DNA from: Gamsiella multidivaricata
Taxonomy: Eukaryota; Mortierellomycota; Mortierellomycetes; Mortierellales; Mortierellaceae
Length of the DNA: 64,000 nt
Reading direction: 5' to 3'
Assembly: GCF_025024155.1 (NCBI RefSeq)
Contig: NW_026251816.1
Coordinates: forward strand, 1-64,000
Shown: positions 2,349 through 59,397 of the stretch, piece after piece
Layout: each line of letters begins with the position of its first letter
Position numbering within the stretch: position 1 is the stretch's first letter
Program-made: the position numbers and the translations under genes
The notes under the pieces: generated by a model
Seen by the model: the letters and a program-made list of their open reading frames with translations, nothing else
Database searches by the model: none
Told to the model about the DNA's origin: nothing

Positions 2349-4383
2349 ATGGCCTCGTGGGTGAACCACACCTCCGCGACGATGCAGAGCCACGCTCCAG
2401 CACGTCGCTCAGGACCCTCCGGATCCGAACGTGCCTCGCCTGTACCCTCTAACTATTCCACACGCGGTTCCAATCGCCAACAGATCCAACCCCAGCAACA
2501 ACAACAGCCGATCCAACCTCAGCATCATCAACCTCAGTACCACCAACAGCATCAGTTCAAGGTATACCAGCCTCAAACGCAGCAACAACAGCACACACAT
2601 CCCTCCGCCATGCCTATGCAGCCACGTTATCCCGTGCACGCTACACCGGCTGCTGGAGCTCCATATGGGTACAGTGCTCAGTACAACACTACAGCGAACG
2701 CAAATTCAGCCTCTAGGATGGCCAACGCTTTTGGAACCTTTAGCACCTATGCTGCAAGGATACGGGAGGCAAACAGCGCCTTAATCTTGCCGCCTGCACT
2801 GGGACGGCGTGCCAAGCGAGCCGTGGTATCGATGGCAGAGAGTGATGATGACGATTGGGATTTTGATGACTCGCCTCGCAGCACACCGACTAGGCATCAG
2901 AAGCAGCAGGCCTTGTTAGAAAAGGAGAGGATGGAGAAGGAGAAGAAGACATGGGCACGTCGCCCCCGAAAGACGCGTCATGTCTTCAAGTAAGTAGCAG
3001 CATCGCTTCAGAGCACGCACTCAAAGACGCCTTGCTTCTTTTTTTTTTTTTTTTTTTTTTTTTGGACTTTATAATCTATGCTGCGCTTCATTATGCATGC
3101 AACTGATGGTATTTGCACTGCTTCCTAACATTGATAGTTCGCAAAGGGACTTGGAGGCGGTTGCAGATCAGGATGCGATTTTGGTCCCCATCCGCCTGGA
3201 CATTGACACAGACGATCACCGACTGCGCGATACATTTACCTGGAACGTGAACGAGCAGCTGCTGACGCCAGAGAAATTTGCAGAGATTCTGTGCGATGAT
3301 CTGGATTTGAGCACCACAAAGTTCGTCCCCGAGATCGCACAGTCGATTCGGAATCAGATCGCAGAGTTTGAACCAGTCGCGGAGGTCCAGGTCCCCACCG
3401 AAGGATCTAGAGTTGTCATTCAGGTAATGTCCAATATGTGGGACGTAATCCAACCTGATTGAAATCGAATGAAAGAACCGTTACTAACAAGACTCGATTA
3501 AAATAACTGGTGACAAATAGCTGGATCTGCATGTTGGAGGCATCAATCTTCGGGACCGTTTCGAGTGGGATGTAGGCTCGGACTTGACGCCAGAGGAGTT
3601 TGCGAGACAGTTGGCGGCGGATTTGGGTATTGGTGGTGAATTCGTTTCGATGATCGCACACGAGATTCACGAGCAGCTCTACCGCTTCAAGCAGGATCGA
3701 TTACTAGATCGAGGATTCGAGCCAGAACCGCTTTATTCAGGATTCCGTTTTGCTGACGAAGGCGAGAGCTGGAGCCCAGCTCTTGAGACACTCACCACGG
3801 AGGAGTACGAAAAAATTTTGGAGGACAGGGAGAGGAGTATTCGGTACGACAACCTCTCTATATGGTGGCAATGCGACTAGGTATTATGGCATCTCTTCTT
3901 TCGGTCAAGGGCTAACACTGTGCCTTTTTTTTTTGTCGCCTTCCTTACAAATCTAGACGAAACCGAAGAGCGACATCCAGTTTTACGAAGCGTCGCGGTG
4001 CCTCGTCGTACAGCGTACCAGGCTATCAGAGCAGAATCACAAAACGTGGTCGATTGACTCAGCGACATCAAGCCATGAACATGGACGGCTACAAGGACTG
4101 GCAGTGCCAGCAATGTGGGCTAGGCGCATATTCGACCTTTATGTTACGTTCGGGACCTGGAGGCGAAAAGACGCTGTGCAACACCTGTGGACTCTATTGG
4201 GCCGTCCATGGAGGTCTCCCGGAAGATAGGAAGGATCTGTTCAGGTTCAAGACTGAGAAGGAATCGACGACTGCGGCTCCATCGACAGTTACTACGCCCT
4301 CGGCTACTACGATTGCGACACCCCCAACGGAAGCACCAGTGGATTCAGCCATGGAGTCAACACCAACGCCTGTTGGCGTATGA
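2349..4383 (+). CDS. SNF5: SNF5/SMARCB1-family chromatin remodelling subunit with C-terminal GATA zinc finger
   Basis: Four exons, 2349-2989, 3138-3423, 3521-3843 and 3957-4383, join in phase to 558 aa. SNF5/Sfh1 proteins are core subunits of SWI/SNF- or RSC-type nucleosome remodellers in the nucleus. Residues 1-205 are low complexity (Gln/His/Pro/Ser) with an acidic SDDDDWDFDD patch. The two imperfect SNF5 repeats follow: the first (about 220-309) contains TFTWNVNEQLLTPEKFAEIL, and the second (about 310-400) contains INLRDRFEWDVGSDLTPEEF. Residues about 467-494 form a GATA-type finger C-X2-C-X20-C-X2-C followed by GLYWAVHG, close to the classical GATA CNxCGLYxxxHG. The first intron has a run of 25 T. 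The gene is convergent with its neighbour, 170 nt between stops. Whether it is the SWI/SNF (Snf5) or RSC (Sfh1) paralogue cannot be told here. Confidence 0.88.
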
Positions 4384-33738: not shown

Positions 33739-35907
33739 ATGAAGCACGGCATCGTCTTCGCAGGCACCGATTTAAAGCACATTTTCAAAATCGCCATTTG
33801 CCGGCCATTACTTTTAAATGGCACACAAGCAATATCATGCCGTGTCTGTCATGTACCAAATGAAGGAAAAGGCATTCATAACCCTATTATTTTTTATTTA
33901 GGCTGTGGCCGGTGTAAGAAGGAGCGCCGTGAGAAGAAGGCCGATGAACAGATCGCGAACGGGCAGGCAGCAAGTTGGTAATATACTATAGCTGCTGTGG
34001 ACCTCGAAGACTATGATGAAGAAGTTGCCAAAGCCCTGTCCCTGTCCAATGCCCAAGCTACTTCACCGGGCGAGTCCTCCATGGTCATAGGTAATTTGAG
34101 AAAACGCCCCCGCCCAGATCCCCTTTTTGAGACTCGGCCCAGCGATCTGGTAGAAGGGCAAGAGCAGGTAGCCTGGGAGATAATTCAAAGATTGCAGAAG
34201 AAGGTCAAGGAGCTGCAAAGTCAGGTCAGACAAATACGACAAGCCACGCCTCCGAGCAACACGTTCGTTTCAATCAAACAACACAAGCGGCCTGCAGGAA
34301 AAAGCTGTTTAACGGAGGAACGCAAAGCACTGCTTCGTTGTTACGAGATTTGTAGAGGAGAGAAGGAACATGCGAAACTGGTAACAACATCGGATCCCTT
34401 ATTGCGAACGACTTTTTACGTAGGATATTCCATCAATACCGTCAATAACACTGTGCTAAGAAGGGATAATAGAGACACCTGAGACAAGCCTTTCTGCAAA
34501 AAGTCAAGAGGATACTCGGTGGTTGAGGCATATATGGTGAGAGGTTCTAGTAAACGGGGTGTGGGCTGTGCTCGGAGCTGCATCGAGGCTGTACGTAACC
34601 GTTTGCAATCCCCGCTATAACCATACTTCATCGTTTGCTTCAGACCTTCGACGAATTGCTACCGATTTGAACGCCAAGAGACAAGTCGTTAACATTAGAA
34701 CCCTTTTTAACCACATCAAGGGGCTATTCGCGGATCAGTCCAAGCTCCCGATCAAGGAAGCGATCCGCCTACTGATGAGGAAAATGGGCTAGATGCCGAG
34801 AACGCTTGGAGATTTGTCGAGACCGAGGATATCAAGGCCAAGGGGCGGCACTACCTTCGAGAACGGCGGTCTGACAAGTACAAAGATGCTGCGTTTGTGT
34901 ATTTGGACGGATCGTACTGTGACCAGAACCATGTTAACAACAAGGTTAATTTATGTTTGTTTTTATCATATGCAAATAAACTCATTTTCAACTTTTATCT
35001 TGTCGTAAACATAGTTCTGGTTCACTCATGGAATGATGATGCATCGTACGAACAAGGGCAAGCGATACTGCGTTATCCATGCTAGTTGGAAGCACGATTG
35101 GATAGGAAACTACGGATCTGGCCAGCTAAACATTGAGGAACTAACGCCTTAATTTTCTCGACGAGCTTTGTCGTTACGCAAGGATAATCTTAGGTTTCCC
35201 AACGTTGTATCTATAATGGAATAATGGACAATGCCAAGTATCATCGCGGGGGACAGCAAGGATAAAATCAGCAGAACGATGAAGCCGAGCAAGGCGATAC
35301 TGAACAAGACATCCAGTCTAAAAACACGATCCTTTCGCAGCTCAGCAAACATGAGCTGTATCAGCGTCTTCAGAGGATGAATGTTGATGTCAAATTGCTC
35401 AATGCACTCGAGAGGAAACAACTGTGTGAGATGGCTAAGAGGCAGCAATACAAGGTTCCTCTTGCCTCAGACGCCATTGCTCAGGAGTAAGAACCCATCG
35501 CAGTATCAAGATCATCGTCGCGTTATGCCTTATTCAGCTGTTAGACTAACTACAACGCTGATTTCTCCTGGATATGGCTACCATATTCCCTGGCTACCCC
35601 CTTACTATCCTGATCTCGATTCCATTGAGGAAGCCTACGGAATTGTGAAGGTTTATGTGGCCTTCCGTAACGACGGATCCAACTTCCAAAGTTGGTTTTG
35701 AAAGGCATAGAGGAAGCAGGTCCAAAATAGGTGGACCTGATGAGGTGGGTAGAGGGTAGCAAAGGGGGATACAGAGCAGCATCACATATAGATGGGCGTC
35801 GCCCTTCCCCTTTACCGATCGACCTTGGTGAAGAATCAGGCGAAGAAGAGAGAGAAGAGGAGGATAGCGTAGATTGGGAGGTTCTATTGTTTGGCTTGGA
35901 GATTTGA
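33739..35907 (+). pseudogene. Broken Tc1/mariner-type (DDE) transposase relic
   Basis: The N-terminal pieces include GCGRCKKERREKKADEQIANG (stop TAA about 33979, same frame continuing) and a region with a coiled stretch, IIQRLQKKVKELQSQVRQI. The catalytic region is recognisable in shifted frames: YLDGSYCDQNHVNN (first Asp, near 34900), HASWKHDWIGNYGSG, IMDNAKYHRG at 35221-35250 (second Asp), and WLPPYYPDLDSIEEAYGIVK near 35590-35650 (third acidic residue). This is the DDE_3-like pattern of Tc1/mariner superfamily transposases. An intact GT-AG intron (34945-35014) separates NNK from FWFTHGMM. Several stops and frameshifts break the gene, so it cannot be active. I could not identify terminal inverted repeats or a target-site duplication. 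Confidence 0.75.
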
Positions 35908-36529
35908 GATACGAATTAAGGTTGGAATTAAAGTTATGCAGCCTATACCATGCCGCAGCCCGATGTTTTTTTCTTGATAAACCATGCTAAATGGTCCCAT
36001 CCGGACGACCTAGTGATATATTTTGAGCAGCTTTCTTCCATCCGCACTTGTTCTGTCAGGAATCCGACGCTTAATACTTTCCGGTGCTGTTTCGTGGTCT
36101 AATTGTTGCACTAATGACCGCGTAAAAAGTATAGCTATCGGAAGCCTTTAATGCTGGACTTGAGCGCGCTTGGACCGAATCGTTGGTTACATGGGAATGC
36201 CCTGTAATTTGGAAAGTTGTAGTTTTGGACCGCGTGAGAAACTTTGGACCTAAAAAACAGCTCTTTTCTCAACAATGCTCAACAACCCTTTTCCTCTTAT
36301 CCCCATCCATATCCCTCACTACACCTCAGCACCTTCCGGAAGTCTCATCCTAGGTCTGTCCTTCTGCCTCATCTTCACTCTACCACCCGACGTCATGCCT
36401 TCCTGTGTCGCAACTCCCATCCTCCCTCTTTTTTTTTAGGGCAACAGTATGGAAATCCGAAGACAGAAAAATATAAGTGCACAAATCTCACCTCTGTCGT
36501 CTGATTCTGCACTACATTGTAACTACCGC
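35908..36529. other. Spacer between transposase relic and Fanzor-like relic
   Basis: This 622-nt stretch follows the last recognisable transposase codons. No gene is supported. It ends with a pyrimidine-rich segment and CTTTTTTTTTAG (about 36428-36439), which could be the 3' end of a 5' intron or the leader of the following gene. Confidence 0.35.
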
Positions 36530-39225
36530 ATGTCTGGGAATAAATATGAGGCAAACGAGTTCACCCAGCCTGACTTTAGCGCCGATCAGGTTGATACGAT
36601 CGAACCAGACTACGTCAAGAGCAGGAGGCAGAAAGCCAGGTCCAAGGGAAAAGGGAAGGGCAAGGCCGTCAATAAGAAGGCCAAGACCAAGTCCAAGGGC
36701 AAGAAACCCTGTAAAGAAAAATTCTGCGCAATCCCGCTTCAAGAAGGACTCGGCAGCAGGAGGACTCAGAAACAGCCAAAAAAAGGACGAAAGCGAAGCA
36801 TTGGAAGCATGGTTGGAGAATGATAAACGGCAATTTCGCAACAATAACGATGAGCCTTGGAGCGATTGATCGCCGCCTTCGACGTGGATTCCTGATGAAG
36901 GACAGCACTGTTGAAGACTTCGTGGCGAGTCAGCACATCGAACCTACTATTCAGGACATCGTTAAGCTCAACGCGAATATGATCAGATGTGGGAGCCTGG
37001 CGACGTTCAGCTATATCAACACGATCATGACAGAGTATCCGCCAATAAGCCAGGCTCAGAGGATATTCTAACCCGTCGCGACAAGTTCCAGTACAATTCG
37101 CAGGAGAAGCATGGATTTTTCAAGACGCACGTGAAAGGGCTATACCACTGGGATGACGGACTCTAGGGCAGCGGCGACGGTTTTAATTCGGCTTCGGCGA
37201 CACCTGAATCCTTTAAGACCCTGCCTGGGAACAAGGACGCCATGGTTCAAAAAATCAAGGGGCATCTCGACAACGCGGCCTCAACTCGATGTCTGGATCA
37301 AGTCGGCCAAACACTGGGAAACCTGATCAGATGCCATATCCGTGCTTTTGTTTCAAAGTTAAAAATATACATCATCTTTGCATAGATCGAGGCCTGGAAC
37401 CCAGAGTGAGCAGCGATTCAGAAAAGAGCGGCTTTCTTAGGCACGGTCGACGACCAGAGCAAGCCCTTAGTCCATGATCCGGTGTTCTTATTCTGGGCCA
37501 TCAATACCGAACTGTCATCCTCAAAACAGTTTGCGTATCTCCCAATGCCAGCCTACAAAGACAACCTCTGCCTGATCAGTGAATGGCATTTGGCGGAAGC
37601 TGTTTTGAGAACTAGAGGAGTGAATTTCAAAGTTCGGAACAAACTGACTAGGATGTTCGGAGGACCCACAAAGGCCAAATTAAAGACACAGTCTCATCTG
37701 GGAGAGCTTTTTCGAAAGCTGTTTTTCCATGGCATGGAAGCCAACCACGACCGACATGCCTGTGTCGAATTCCCTGATGACAAGTCCTTGCTGCGCTTGG
37801 TCTATCTGGATTCTTTGCTTTGCCAAAATGAGCTTGACATACCCACGACTCAGCTTGTGGACACACCAGAGCACAAAAGGGCCAAGGAGGATGTGAAGAC
37901 AGCACTCAAGAAGAGTATCCTGGCCATAGACAACGCTACTCGGGCGAGAAAGTACGTGCTCGCTAGCACTTTGCAAACCGATGGGCATCGGCGCGAGATC
38001 CACTCCTACAGTCTGATTCAGCGCAAGAAGAAGGAAAAAGGAGGACGAGGACAAGGACAACAGTAAGGAGGCATCTCAGAGCGGCGCCTCCTGCTCCACA
38101 AAGCAGCCGAAGGTGAAGAAGAATGATCAGCAGGACATCACAGGCGCTAGCATGGCCTCAGCCATGCCCATGAGGTCTATGGTGAAGTACCTGACCGAAG
38201 CGATCCCGGGTCCAGAGGCACTGCAAAAGGAATTTGACAATCAGGAGAGCCATGTTGTGCTCGCCATCGACCCCAGCATAAAGAATACTGCCGCGGCTGT
38301 GATCGTGGATTCGCTTATCCCTGAAATGTCCTGGAACCTGTCGCTACCCAAAGGATGCCACACCTGGAACAGCCGACGATACACAAGGCTGTTAAGGTGC
38401 CTCAGAAACAAAAAATGAATCGAGGCTGCAGAGGAGATGGTGAGCATCAAACGACCTGGATGCAAAGACTCAGCCGGTAAAGTGTTCCGACCCTCAAGGA
38501 GTCGACTTGGCTCTGCAGTTTGAAGAACTCAAGGATCCCTGGCAACAGCATGCAGACTCAGGCTTCACGGTCGAGCAAGACTTGAGGGCCTTTTACGGAT
38601 CGAAGCGTCTGAAGGTCACTCGTCATTGCAAGGAACAAGGGGGAAGTCCGAGGCAGGACGCGCAATCGGTAGGATGCTTAAAGCGGCGCACAGGAGGGCA
38701 AAGACTGATCAACGACGACCTATGGTCGTCATCGGTGATGGTGACCTCAGGGGCAAGGGCGGGGGACCGGTCAAGCCGAACAGGTTCACATCACGGCTGC
38801 AGTCTCAGGTAGGTGGAAGCTGCAGAAACGTTTTATTTGCATCGATGAAGGATGGTACGATATATGTTAGTCACTAACATTTTACTGCTACAAACACTGC
38901 TGTGCATATAGGCTACCAAGATGGGGATCTGGTGTGCTGCGTCAACGAATTCCGAACGTCGATATCTTGTTGCAGATGCCACAAGGGAGTCGAGGCTCAG
39001 GGCCGCTCGGTCGTGTGCCCTGACTCGACATGTGGAGGTTGTCGGCCATCGGAATATGACTTAACACACAAGTTGGCCTTAACACCGGGCTCCAGCGCGA
39101 TCGAGACCACAACGCTGGCCAGAGCATGGCCAACGCTGCCCTTAAATAGGTTAAGGACTTTAAGTGGCTCGAGGCACTGGATTGAAAGCAATAGGCAACC
39201 ATTGGAATGGCGTTTATCAATATAG
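36530..39225 (+). pseudogene. Fanzor/TnpB-like (RuvC plus zinc ribbon) nuclease relic
   Basis: The pieces read in order through changing frames. There is a Lys-rich N-terminus after ATG 36530, then SLATFSYINTIMTEYPP, then a long intact block (37431-38040) with HGMEANHDRH. The RuvC-I-like motif VVLAIDPSIKNTAAAVIVDS has its Asp codon at 38269. Then come FYGSKRLK (38591-38614), VVIGDGDLRGKGGG, and NEFRTS (38944-38961) followed by a Cys-rich ribbon (SCCRCHKG ... VVCPDSTC). RDHNAGQSMANAA at 39102 (Asp 39105) matches the final RDxNA motif. This order is that of TnpB/Fanzor proteins, RNA-guided nucleases found in fungal transposons. Defects are in-frame TAG at 37164, TGA at 38416, and frameshifts near 36716, 38038, 38484, 38641 and between 38990 and 39102. 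A GT-AG intron fits at 38809-38911. Both ends of the gene are uncertain. Confidence 0.72.
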
Positions 39226-39333
39226 CTAGTAAGTCTCATGTCTTTTTCATCTACCATGCGATTTACGTACAAAAATCATGTTTGGGTAACATTCTTAGAT
39301 CTATATGCCTTCTCTATTATGTATCCATCTTCC

Positions 39334-42300
39334 TTATGCGCCGTATTGGTCGCGCATCATCTGACGCTGGTATGCTATCTGGTCGCGCTTCGCCTGAGCC
39401 CTGGCTTCTCTGGCTTTCGACTGCGTCTCGATCACCTGCTTCAAAAAGTCTTCTACACCAGGATCGGGTCGCATCCGCAAGATCCTCAGTACGGTCTCTG
39501 GGTTGGGAGTCATCGAGTCCGCACTCGGCCGCTTGGCGCCCACAAATCGTCGGTCATAGTCACTCTGCTGACGACCCAGTCGTCCGCGTCCTGGCACAGT
39601 CAATGCGCGGTTGTACTCTGCAACAAGATCCTCCATTGACGAGTCGTAGATCGGACGCACCGTCAGCAAATCACGGTACTTGGGAATTTCGAGGACCTTC
39701 AACGGGAATCCGTCTCCTGCATCACCGCCATTCAGGTACAGCTTGATGAACTGGGTAGAGGGGAGCAAATTATCGCGTTAAGGCTAATAACTCTTTGTGT
39801 ATCGTATACTCGTATACATAGGGTCCCACAACGCAGCCCAGTAGATATCCAGGTTAAACATATACCTCAATGATCTTAAAGACAACATGCATCTCGATTT
39901 CGGTCAATGGCGTCCGATCAGAGACAATGTTCGAGAGAGGAGGCATCAGCAGCGACTCGATGGTAATCAGTATCTCTTTCCACAGCTTGGTGATCACCAT
40001 GGTCATTCCTTCCGTAGTTAGATAGTCGTACAAGACTGGAAGCGATGCCTCTAGATAGTCGATCAATTGACCAAGCGCGTTATCGCAGTCCTCGTCTGAG
40101 ACCTTGGTCACTTTGGCTGACGACACGGAGCTGCCAAAGAATGGGAACATGGCCTTGGACCTAAAGTTGTTGAATAAGACCTTTTCCGTCAAGCACTGCT
40201 GGACGCATGGAATCATCTATCCACAATATACAAGTACTATAATTAGTGTTTGAAGTTAATGGTCCAAAAGCGCTAGATGAGATCGAACAATGCTACTGCC
40301 TACCGCATCCACAATCATGCCGCTCATGTCTGCCTCCTTGCGCTTCAGAGATCGGAAAGTCCTGCCGAAAAAGAACTGGACGTCCTCGCGCTCTCCTTTC
40401 ATCGTTATACGCAGCAAGAGACGACCGACTTGAATCAGATCCAGCCAAACGTCGTGGGGCATGTAGTCCTCATACTCTTCAGGATCGATAGTGAGATGCT
40501 GCCAACCACAGAGTCGGTCCTTGTGAACCATGTCGGCGTCGAAAATTCGAACCATATAGGTGATACTCTTGGTCAGCGTCACCTCGTACACCTCATTCCA
40601 GCGTGGATTGATATTAGCGTAGATGGTTTTGGACCTGAACACCTCTTTGTTGTCGTGCGATATGATAATGAACGGGTCGCTGGCCTCGTTTGAATCCATA
40701 GGCATCAATCTCTCTGCAGCGACAAGCACGATTTCAAACTGCTTGGGCGCATTTGGATCCGGTGTAACGTCAGGCTCGTTATCACGCATAATCTGTGCGA
40801 CTTCGTCCACATCCATGTTGCGATACAACTCGTCCAACCGCTGACGGACAGCCTCGATGTTGTTCATAAGAACGCACATCTAGATGACCAAGGGGTGACC
40901 GTTAGCATGACATTCCTATACTCATAGTTCACTTACTGATTCCCAGCGCACTGATCGTCATACCTTTGGCGTAAATACAAATTGGGTGGCCTTCTTCGCT
41001 TCTGCGCTCTCCGACCGGAAAGTGAAGGATGCCAGCTGTTCTGAAAGTGTCTTGACTTCGGTTGTTCCAACGGACGATACGGAAGATGGCATACAACCAT
41101 TGAACATTGTTTCCATGTACTGGGCGTACAGATCGACAGCCTTGCAGAAAACCTTGGCTAGTTTTGAGATAAAGGTCGCTCGCTGGTAGTCGTTGGGCCA
41201 ATTTAGCCCTTTGACCCATGTCAAAGGCTCGTAGAAGAACGCAAACAAATCACTTGCTGACGAAGAGTGGCCAGCTCCAACACTGACTTCCTCAAACTAA
41301 TTGGGCGGGAGTAGCAAATAAAAACATATCAGTGGCCTTGCCTAACTATCCATTGCTGTCAAGCAGTGATAGGCGGCACTTAGTCGATACCTGGTCTTGT
41401 TTGATGGCAGCTGTGACCCATTCTGTGATGGAAGCATCCAACGTTTCCAAGTACTTGAGAACGTAGGGTCGGAACCACGTTGAAATATTGAAATGGACAC
41501 TTGAGCTATAAAGGCGAAAAAAAAAGAGTCTCAGCAATGGCAACGTAAATGATCGGAAATACAGAAAAGAGGGTGCCGGTTGCTTTACCTGGGTGCGTAC
41601 AGCTCAAACAGAGTGACCAGCTCCCGACATAGCTGATACAATGGGAACACATCAGACATGGGCAATTTTCTGGCATCCATGTTCGCCATATTTTGCATCA
41701 GCGGCACAAAGTTTCTCAAGTTGTTCTCCACTACAATTGCTGCGACGTCCACCGTACTATCGCACAACGGCATAGAATGTCAGTCAGCTGAGTTTCGTGG
41801 AAAACATGCATAGAGAAGTTCAAAATGCATCCGTGCTTACCCAAATAGTGCTTTCGAGAACCGCTTCTTCATCTTTCCATGCTCAGACACAATGTAGAGT
41901 GCCATCTTTGTGAGTGGTACGGTCTCATTCTCGTATCGTTCCTTTTGAACCTCCTCGTCCTTAGCGTTGTAACTTCGAATGGACTCCAAAAGTACTGTCT
42001 CCTTGATGTCCTCAAAGAACGGCGTCAGATTGATATTCAGTCGTTGATACACCTCCTGCTGATGCACTCTGTCGAGGATATCCAACATTGGCTGGAAGTA
42101 GCCCGCACTGACATTTTCCAAATCCTTGATATCATGGTTTATGTTGTCGAAAATCATATGGTTCAAGCCGCCATAAACGTCGCCTAACATGTTGACCTAT
42201 TCATTCAATCGTCCGCCCCAGGCGATATTGAGTGAGCGTGAGAAGACATCATACTGTAATGAAACGAAAACACCAGGTCCCTTATCCAGTAGATGTATGC

Positions 42301-58506: not shown

Positions 58507-59157
58507 TTATAGCGTACGGTTCTTCAACAGTGCCATCTCCACTGCGCCAGAGCCCCAGTCCAATCCATGATTGTGTCCCTTGCCCTCCTTGTCCATGCCG
58601 GCACGGCTCAATGCCTGATCCTCGTTCAAGCAGGTCAAGACTCCAAAGATCACTGGCAGACCCGAGTCCAGGCCAACGCGCATGATTCCCTGCGTGACAG
58701 CCTCGCAGATGTACTCGAAATGCATGGTCGAGCCCTTGATCAACACTCCGATACAGATCACGGCATCGAATGCCTGCTTGCTTCCTGTAGCAGTAGCACT
58801 AGTGGTACTGGCACCGATGGAGGCGGGTCTGGCTGAGGTCGTGGGTGAGGAGAGGTTGAGGCCGTCCAGGAGGTTGACATTGCCCATCAGGTCATTGGCT
58901 CCTTCGGCGGCACGGATCTGTGAGACCTCGATGAGCTTCTTGGCCGCAAAGGGCAGCTCGTAGGCGCCGGGTACGGACTCGATAACGATGTTCTCGGGCT
59001 TGACTTTGTGCTGCTCAACCATCGCCTTCTTTGCACCCTCGACCAGTCCCTGGACGATGGCCGAGTTCCAGCGAGTGTGGACGATGAGGATGCGGAGGCT
59101 TGAGCCGTCCTGGGCAACAGCTGCGGGTTCGAGGCCCTTGTGGAAGTCGTCGAGCAT
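58507..59157 (-). CDS. RIB4: 6,7-dimethyl-8-ribityllumazine synthase
   Basis: A single exon of 216 aa. The enzyme condenses 5-amino-6-ribitylaminouracil with dihydroxybutanone phosphate in the penultimate step of riboflavin synthesis. ILIVHTRWN (the aromatic/Asn substrate region), VPGAYELPFAAKKL and the catalytic GSTMHFEYI (His146) are present. GVLTCLNEDQALSRAG carries the phosphate-binding Arg. Yeast Rib4 is about 169 aa; here roughly 45 extra residues (about 84-128), mostly Ser, Thr, Ala and Leu, sit between the second strand-helix unit and VICIGVLIKG. The reading frame is continuous through this insert with no splice signals, so it appears to be translated. A TG-rich segment (59183-59213) lies just upstream of the start. 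Confidence 0.93.
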   Translation of the reverse strand: MLDDFHKGLEPAAVAQDGSSLRILIVHTRWNSAIVQGLVEGAKKAMVEQHKVKPENIVIESVPGAYELPFAAKKLIEVSQIRAAEGANDLMGNVNLLDGLNLSSPTTSARPASIGASTTSATATGSKQAFDAVICIGVLIKGSTMHFEYICEAVTQGIMRVGLDSGLPVIFGVLTCLNEDQALSRAGMDKEGKGHNHGLDWGSGAVEMALLKNRTL

Positions 59158-59397
59158 GATGAATGAAGAAGAAGGAGAATGAGTGTGTATGTGTATGTGT
59201 GTGTGTGAGAGTGAGGATCGAGTGGAGTTCGTTCAGAAGGACAGGGGCCAGGGGTGGCTGACGCAAAATGACCTCACGCGCATGAAAAGCGCAGCGCGTT
59301 TTCGAGTCGGAGACAACCACCGCCACTGACCACAGCAAGTTACACTGATGGACTAAACAAAAAATATCTACAGGGTTTATTAACTGGTCTTTCGAAT

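Follow-up and report, generated by a model that had tools for sequence, protein, structure and literature searches.

What protein did a broken nuclease gene in the early-diverging fungus Gamsiella multidivaricata encode before it decayed? Fanzors are eukaryotic RNA-guided nucleases, and a first-pass annotation of 64,000 nucleotides of this genome (contig NW_026251816.1, positions 1 to 64,000; the whole stretch is called the window here) had recognised in it a dead, TnpB-related, Fanzor-like gene. We place a decayed Fanzor1-type gene at window positions 36440-39225 (+). The homology shared among its copies spans 35955 to approximately 39290-39294 (+), beyond the coordinates first annotated. Comparison with relatives makes it probable that the window carries a dead mobile-element copy, and that the ancestral protein was a fusion of an N-terminal 5′-flap-type nuclease (FEN1/XPG/EXO1 superfamily) with a Fanzor1-type nuclease. 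It is also likely, if a little less so, that such FEN1/XPG-type and Fanzor1 fusions form a large and ancient lineage in Mortierellaceae, with about 100 places in a single genome and several subfamilies that have diverged far from one another. In this lineage the flap nuclease would process strands after a guided cut, and the window copy would be a dead descendant that lacks this nuclease.

The analysis was computational, and the results obtained in this way are homology, motifs, FEN1-like sequence and modelled fold, the order, strand and spacing of the domains, predicted two-domain proteins, and decay. The genome searched was the G. multidivaricata assembly (37.5 Mb, 180 contigs). As the genome searches score best candidates only, all genome counts are lower bounds.

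The window gene and its relatives

The window pieces were joined with X and used as a query, yielding five proteins, P0001-P0005. These include a partial protein from Dissophora ornata (P0001), a protein of 1168 amino acids from D. globulifera (P0002), one from Entomortierella lignicola (P0004) and a hypothetical protein from jgi (P0005). Relatives with a species name all belong to Dissophora, Entomortierella or Mortierella (lineage confirmed for two), and unbroken predicted proteins of the window family are present in other species. No viral relative was confirmed when profiles A3 and A1 were compared with viral contigs. A tblastn search with residues 361-1168 of P0002 against the window gave five rows, with expectation values (E) of 6e-68, 3e-64 (two linked rows), 4e-21 and 4e-7, and the resemblance is therefore more than chance. 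Wherever the stretches are covered, P0001-P0005 read A[IV]DPG, FYGS, GDG[DN]F, DEFRTSIFCCRC and RDRDHNAG.

Codon reading of the window recovered the motifs named at first pass in the order given there, all on the + strand. They fall in different frames, in pieces beginning at 36440, 36715, 36966, 37167, 37410, 38017, 38444, 38524, 38878 and 39096. At least six frame changes go beyond those that two suspected introns could explain, and there are four in-frame stops, three of them listed in Table 1 and the last at 39183-39185. The three acidic residues of RuvC are all retained, as are TDG and the glutamate of the ribbon. The first-pass proposal of a dead, TnpB-related gene holds; the gene is Fanzor1-like and its host an early-diverging fungus. 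Taken by itself, the copy in the window is an unremarkable fossil.

Published Fanzor fingerprints, in the parts of the sources available, are DPG at RuvC-I, a glutamate six residues ahead of the ribbon and, for Fanzor1, a TDG motif (PMC10711439), together with the Fanzor1 layout D...[TS][TS]xx-C4-...RD (PMC3627910). Codons spread over several frames of the window match this layout, with an Asp-to-TS distance of about 228 codons before removal of a possible intron, inside the interval 125-275. The alternative glutamate, placed six residues ahead of the first CxxC, is found in NEFRTSISCCRC in the window and in DEFRTSIFCCRC in P0002 and P0004, and the Glu-x6-CxxC spacing of the window is the same as that given for Fanzors in the accessible part of PMC10711439. 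The TDG motif (WED) is present in the window and in P0001-P0006. DPG stands in all six relatives that cover the RuvC-I site; among genomic copies the residue after the RuvC-I Asp-Pro is S, D, N or G, and some Fanzors of the G. multidivaricata genome read DAG or DLG.

Profile searches gave low scores. The PF07282 ribbon profile (cut-off 26.3 bits) scored 9.2 bits on the window piece, 22.3 bits on P0002 (E 1.5e-4) and 19.1 bits on P0004 (E 0.0014), all below the cut-off; no single window piece passed a Pfam cut-off, and precomputed Pfam domains are absent from P0001-P0005. A PDB sequence search with the window ribbon piece placed a TnpB-like protein (L79) at the top of six rows, weakly (E 0.09). 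By hhalign, the family ribbon profile aligned with those Fanzors of the genome that PF07282 recognises (E 2.1e-5, probability 77%), with DEFRTS over HEYYTS. These PF07282-positive Fanzors, searched against PDB, matched TnpB, OrfB/IS605, Cas12-type, LaTranC or Transposase entries in 16 of 17 rows at E ≤1; three rows lay below E 0.001, the best at 1.2e-5. PF00239, the serine recombinase profile relevant to Fanzor2/IS607, had no match at E 0.001 in the G. multidivaricata genome.

Three results speak against the assignment. RuvC-I of the window reads DPS, not DPG. Family-only profiles found no significant TnpB-type chain in PDB, one search giving no such row and another a single Cas12m row at E 0.75, and the AlphaFold model of the Fanzor half of P0004 had a mean predicted local distance difference test score of 40.7, too low for a fold search. 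On sequence grounds, we class the window family as Fanzor1-type.

A predicted FEN1-like domain at the N terminus

Predicted proteins of the relatives carry an N-terminal FEN1/XPG-type nuclease domain that was missed at first pass and that the window copy does not contain. In the P0002 model this domain has the fold of the FEN1/XPG/EXO1 superfamily (Foldseek and VIA-align); only residues 2-309 of the model are well covered in the VIA-align list. Each of the 49 higher-ranked matches in that list is an entry for FEN1, EXO1 or XPG/Rad2, or for a repair complex containing one of them. Among the sequences covering each site, the FEN1-like acidic residues are kept at D81 (17/17), D177 (18/18), D197 (18/18), D247 (17/17), E175 (15/18) and D199 (17/18), and at D31 as judged by eye. 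Matches to curated Pfam and NCBIfam families were weak and none passed its cut-off. At the genomic loci L079 and L080, DUF4776 outscored XPG_N and XPG_I_2. We regard the domain as kin of the FEN1/XPG/EXO1 superfamily and do not claim it for those curated families. It is about 15% identical to the FEN1, EXO1 and XPG(Rad2) 5′ nucleases, and differs from them in its predicted joining to a Fanzor and in its occurrence at about 100 places of one genome.

What the two halves would do together can be proposed only tentatively. Directed by an RNA that the element encodes, the Fanzor half would cut matching DNA; the FEN1-like half tethered to it would trim 5′ flaps or ends left after the cut. Such trimming would hinder simple rejoining and so favour repair from the other copy of the element, copying the element back. 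We consider this division of labour between guided cutting and flap trimming quite possible, at somewhat less than even chances. A less likely arrangement is a true fusion in which RNA is the substrate of the FEN1-like domain, as in trimming of the guide RNA, or in which this domain only binds, with no processing of DNA flaps; against it stand the acidic residue set, kept in other sequences, and the FEN1, EXO1 and XPG/Rad2 fold matches.

Searches for a guide RNA and for a mobilising enzyme recognised neither. Conserved folding at the 3′ ends of eight copies gave nine pairs, one of them changed on both sides, with an energy of -5.2, and thus no support for a guide RNA. Within 8 kb of the 109 ribbon places of the genome, transposase matches were 2 of 73 for DDE_3, 0 of 11 for Helitron_like_N and 0 of 8 for MULE. 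No mobilising enzyme accompanied the ribbon places among DDE_3, Helitron, MULE and serine recombinase; other superfamilies, hAT, Harbinger and Crypton among them, were not searched.

One protein or two

Five predicted proteins cross from the FEN1-like domain into Fanzor sequence. P0002 continues to the end, P0006 (Mortierella sp. AD010) beyond RuvC-I, P0007 and P0008 into REC, and P0015 (Mortierella sp. AM989) as far as the beginning of the Fanzor part. In the genome, three merged FEN1-like queries gave 108 places, which were compared with the 109 ribbon places under a limit of 6 kb. A FEN1-like place lay upstream on the same strand of 55 of the 109 ribbon places and of 10 of the 21 window-family places; a single FEN1-like query paired 47 of the 109. 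For the ribbon places, the gap from the FEN1-like place had a median of 2.9 kb (interquartile 2716-3041). About 1 of the 109 would be expected by chance, and the three other strand and order arrangements gave 3, 4 and 3. Chance adjacency of two nucleases was rejected because of the strand, order and spacing of the domains.

An improbable reading is that the family consists of two separate neighbouring genes, FEN1-like and Fanzor, merged by gene predictors; their products would then act as partners. Several observations favour it and weigh against a single protein. P0013 (D. ornata) is annotated as a 355-amino-acid protein with the FEN1-like domain alone, four database open reading frames (P0009-P0012) stop at the junction, and 54 of the 109 ribbon places and 42 of the 108 FEN1-like places, the latter with no Fanzor place within 6 kb downstream, are unpaired; decay, limited sensitivity or truly separate genes would each account for the unpaired places. 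On the other side, the five proteins that continue across the junction come from differing sources, and an intron at the junction would explain why P0009-P0012 end there. In the copy at C131:65-70k, a 95-base GT-AG stretch separates YLQE from FKAANK, and P0007 has YFQEFKAANK; this putative intron links both readings, and GTAAG stands at the end of the first part in C102, C105, L074 and L075. The intron reading in C131 lies one frame away from the FEN1-like match that precedes it in this broken copy, and C159 and C126:245k have no GTA at the end of the first part; both points tell against the intron.

At L074 (C170:89953-90555, -) a FEN1-like open reading frame of 464 amino acids is followed by an exon resembling a Fanzor N terminus, with no ribbon place detected downstream. 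Some unpaired FEN1-like places may be Fanzors with a missed ribbon.

Probable loss of the FEN1-like part from the window copy

No FEN1-like remnant was found in the window by tblastn with residues 1-372 of P0002; the best row (E 0.47) was located elsewhere in the window. The 5′ block of the element precedes the FEN1-like domain in C105, C129 and C126:118k. In the window this block is followed by 272 bases without FEN1-like trace, by a T-run ending in AG and by the Fanzor part, an arrangement from which we infer an internal deletion. Such a deletion is most likely how the window copy lost its FEN1-like part.

Alternatively, the window copy may derive from a form that never had the domain, its absence being ancestral. 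The domain has left no trace in the window, and C107 likewise has the 5′ block near the Fanzor part. This origin is nevertheless about as improbable as that of two separate genes, since at least 10 of 17 merged copies keep FEN1-like parts, broken at different points (tblastn, E 3e-4 or better), C131:257k keeping residues 13-71 only, and since the 5′ block and the acceptor-like AG persist in the window.

Copies in the genome

A DNA search of the genome returned 48 matching pieces including the window; the other 47 were grouped into 20 places and are 65-86% identical to the window DNA. Fourteen copies offered 60 or more codons for comparison with the window; the ratio of non-synonymous to synonymous divergence (dN/dS) was 0.41-0.69 and dS 0.26-0.97, a rough estimate that sums tblastn rows which may overlap. 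All 14 contain stops (2 to 15 among matched codons). These values fit lineages that diverged under some selection and died afterwards.

No unbroken copy of the window family was seen in the G. multidivaricata genome. The intact paralogues that had been suggested were not found for this family; in a far-diverged Fanzor subfamily one locus, L083, has long open pieces and is a candidate. The loci L001, L002, L003, L007, L008 and L083 represent Fanzor-like subfamilies in which RuvC-I reads DAG or DLG (DFG in one), not DPG, and RuvC-II is of the NEYYTSKKC type.

Structure and surroundings of the window element

The features of the element are collected in Table 1. Among the repeats listed for the window no pair links its two ends, and neither terminal inverted repeats nor a target-site duplication were seen by eye in the end alignments.

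Table 1. Features of the decayed element, in window coordinates
Feature	Positions	Strand	Basis
Element as common to copies (termini approximate)	35955..39294	+	blastn with window 34000-42000 on 17 merged copies, end alignments
5′ non-coding block, common to some copies	35955..36162	+	blastn, end alignments, tblastn
272-base stretch from 5′ block to Fanzor part, without FEN1-like remnant	36163..36434	+	tblastn, sequence comparison
T-run ending in AG, intron-acceptor-like	AG at 36438-36439	+	sequence comparison
Start of Fanzor part: basic linker, REC start; frames from 36440 and 36715	36440..37071	+	tblastn with P0002, copy-to-copy comparison
REC continued; stop inside at 37164-37166	36966..37385	+	copy comparison, codon reading
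Open piece of 218 codons; TDG motif 37977-37985	37410..38066	+	tblastn, codon reading
RuvC-I piece AIDPSIKNTAAAV; catalytic Asp codon (AIDPS) 38269-38271; terminal stop 38416-38418	38017..38418	+	alignment, codons
FYGSKRLK (38591-38614) and VVIGDGDLRGKGGG (GDGDL from 38734) in two overlapping frames	38444..38877	+	alignment, codon reading
RuvC-II and zinc ribbon: Glu codon (NEFRTS) 38947-38949, CxxC 38968-38979, Cys 39016-39018 and 39031-39033	38878..39056	+	alignment, codon reading
RuvC-III RDHNAG (39102-39119); Asp codon 39105-39107; then stop 39147-39149	39096..39149	+	codon reading
3′ non-coding end, common to several copies	39225..39294	+	blastn, end alignments

Directly upstream lies a fragment of a DDE_3 (Tc1/mariner-type) transposase (35381-35701, +; Pfam E 0.009, under cut-off). 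We rejected it as a component of the element, since it is not shared by the copies: four have no similarity upstream of 35955 within 350-610 bases of flank. Downstream of the 3′ end, on the opposite strand, is a C2-domain gene (40256-40879, -; Pfam E 2e-13), and between the two an open piece without Pfam match (39334-39777, -). A lumazine synthase gene at 58507-59232 (-; Pfam DMRL_synthase, E 1.8e-48) is an ordinary host gene.

Discussion

As far as the accessible parts of PMC3627910 and PMC10432273 describe them, the Fanzor1 proteins (SPu-1/SpuFz1 and relatives) resemble the window family in RuvC and ribbon layout, in the glutamate six residues before the ribbon and in TDG, and also share with it the transposon setting and a fungal host. 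Those parts mention no N-terminal FEN1/XPG-type domain, whereas in the window family about 370 residues precede the Fanzor part; unlike known Fanzor1, the family also scores under the Pfam ribbon cut-off. Parasitella parasitica, likewise an early-diverging fungus, has in PpFz1 a Fanzor1 that carries an extra domain, the FRI insertion; as described in the available text of PMC11423790, this sits within RuvC and is cyclophilin-bound, whereas that predicted for the window family is an N-terminal nuclease. A second nuclease also accompanies Fanzor1 in the Mariner element PGv-1, where a GIY-YIG endonuclease travels with it; by the portion of PMC3627910 at hand, PGv-1 differs in that its two nucleases are separate proteins, that the second has another fold and that a Mariner transposase is present.

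The available portions of PMC3627910, PMC10711439, PMC10432273 and PMC11423790 contain no mention of a Fanzor fusion with XPG, FEN1 or a similar nuclease. A full-text literature search, whose coverage leaves out most subscription papers and preprints, found nothing joining Fanzor with XPG or Mortierell, and among the matches listed for flap endonuclease or FEN1 combined with Fanzor, TnpB or RuvC there was no relevant paper. The flap-nuclease-plus-Fanzor lineage thus looks like an apparently undescribed form of Fanzor.

Fanzors can score under the Pfam ribbon cut-off and so be filed as hypothetical proteins. If the fusion is true, one protein would hold two separable active sites, and predicted full-length proteins are at hand in named species. 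To our knowledge, why transposons keep Fanzors is an open question in the field. A 5′-flap-type domain as natural partner points to events after the guided cut, that is, to end processing and copy-in repair.
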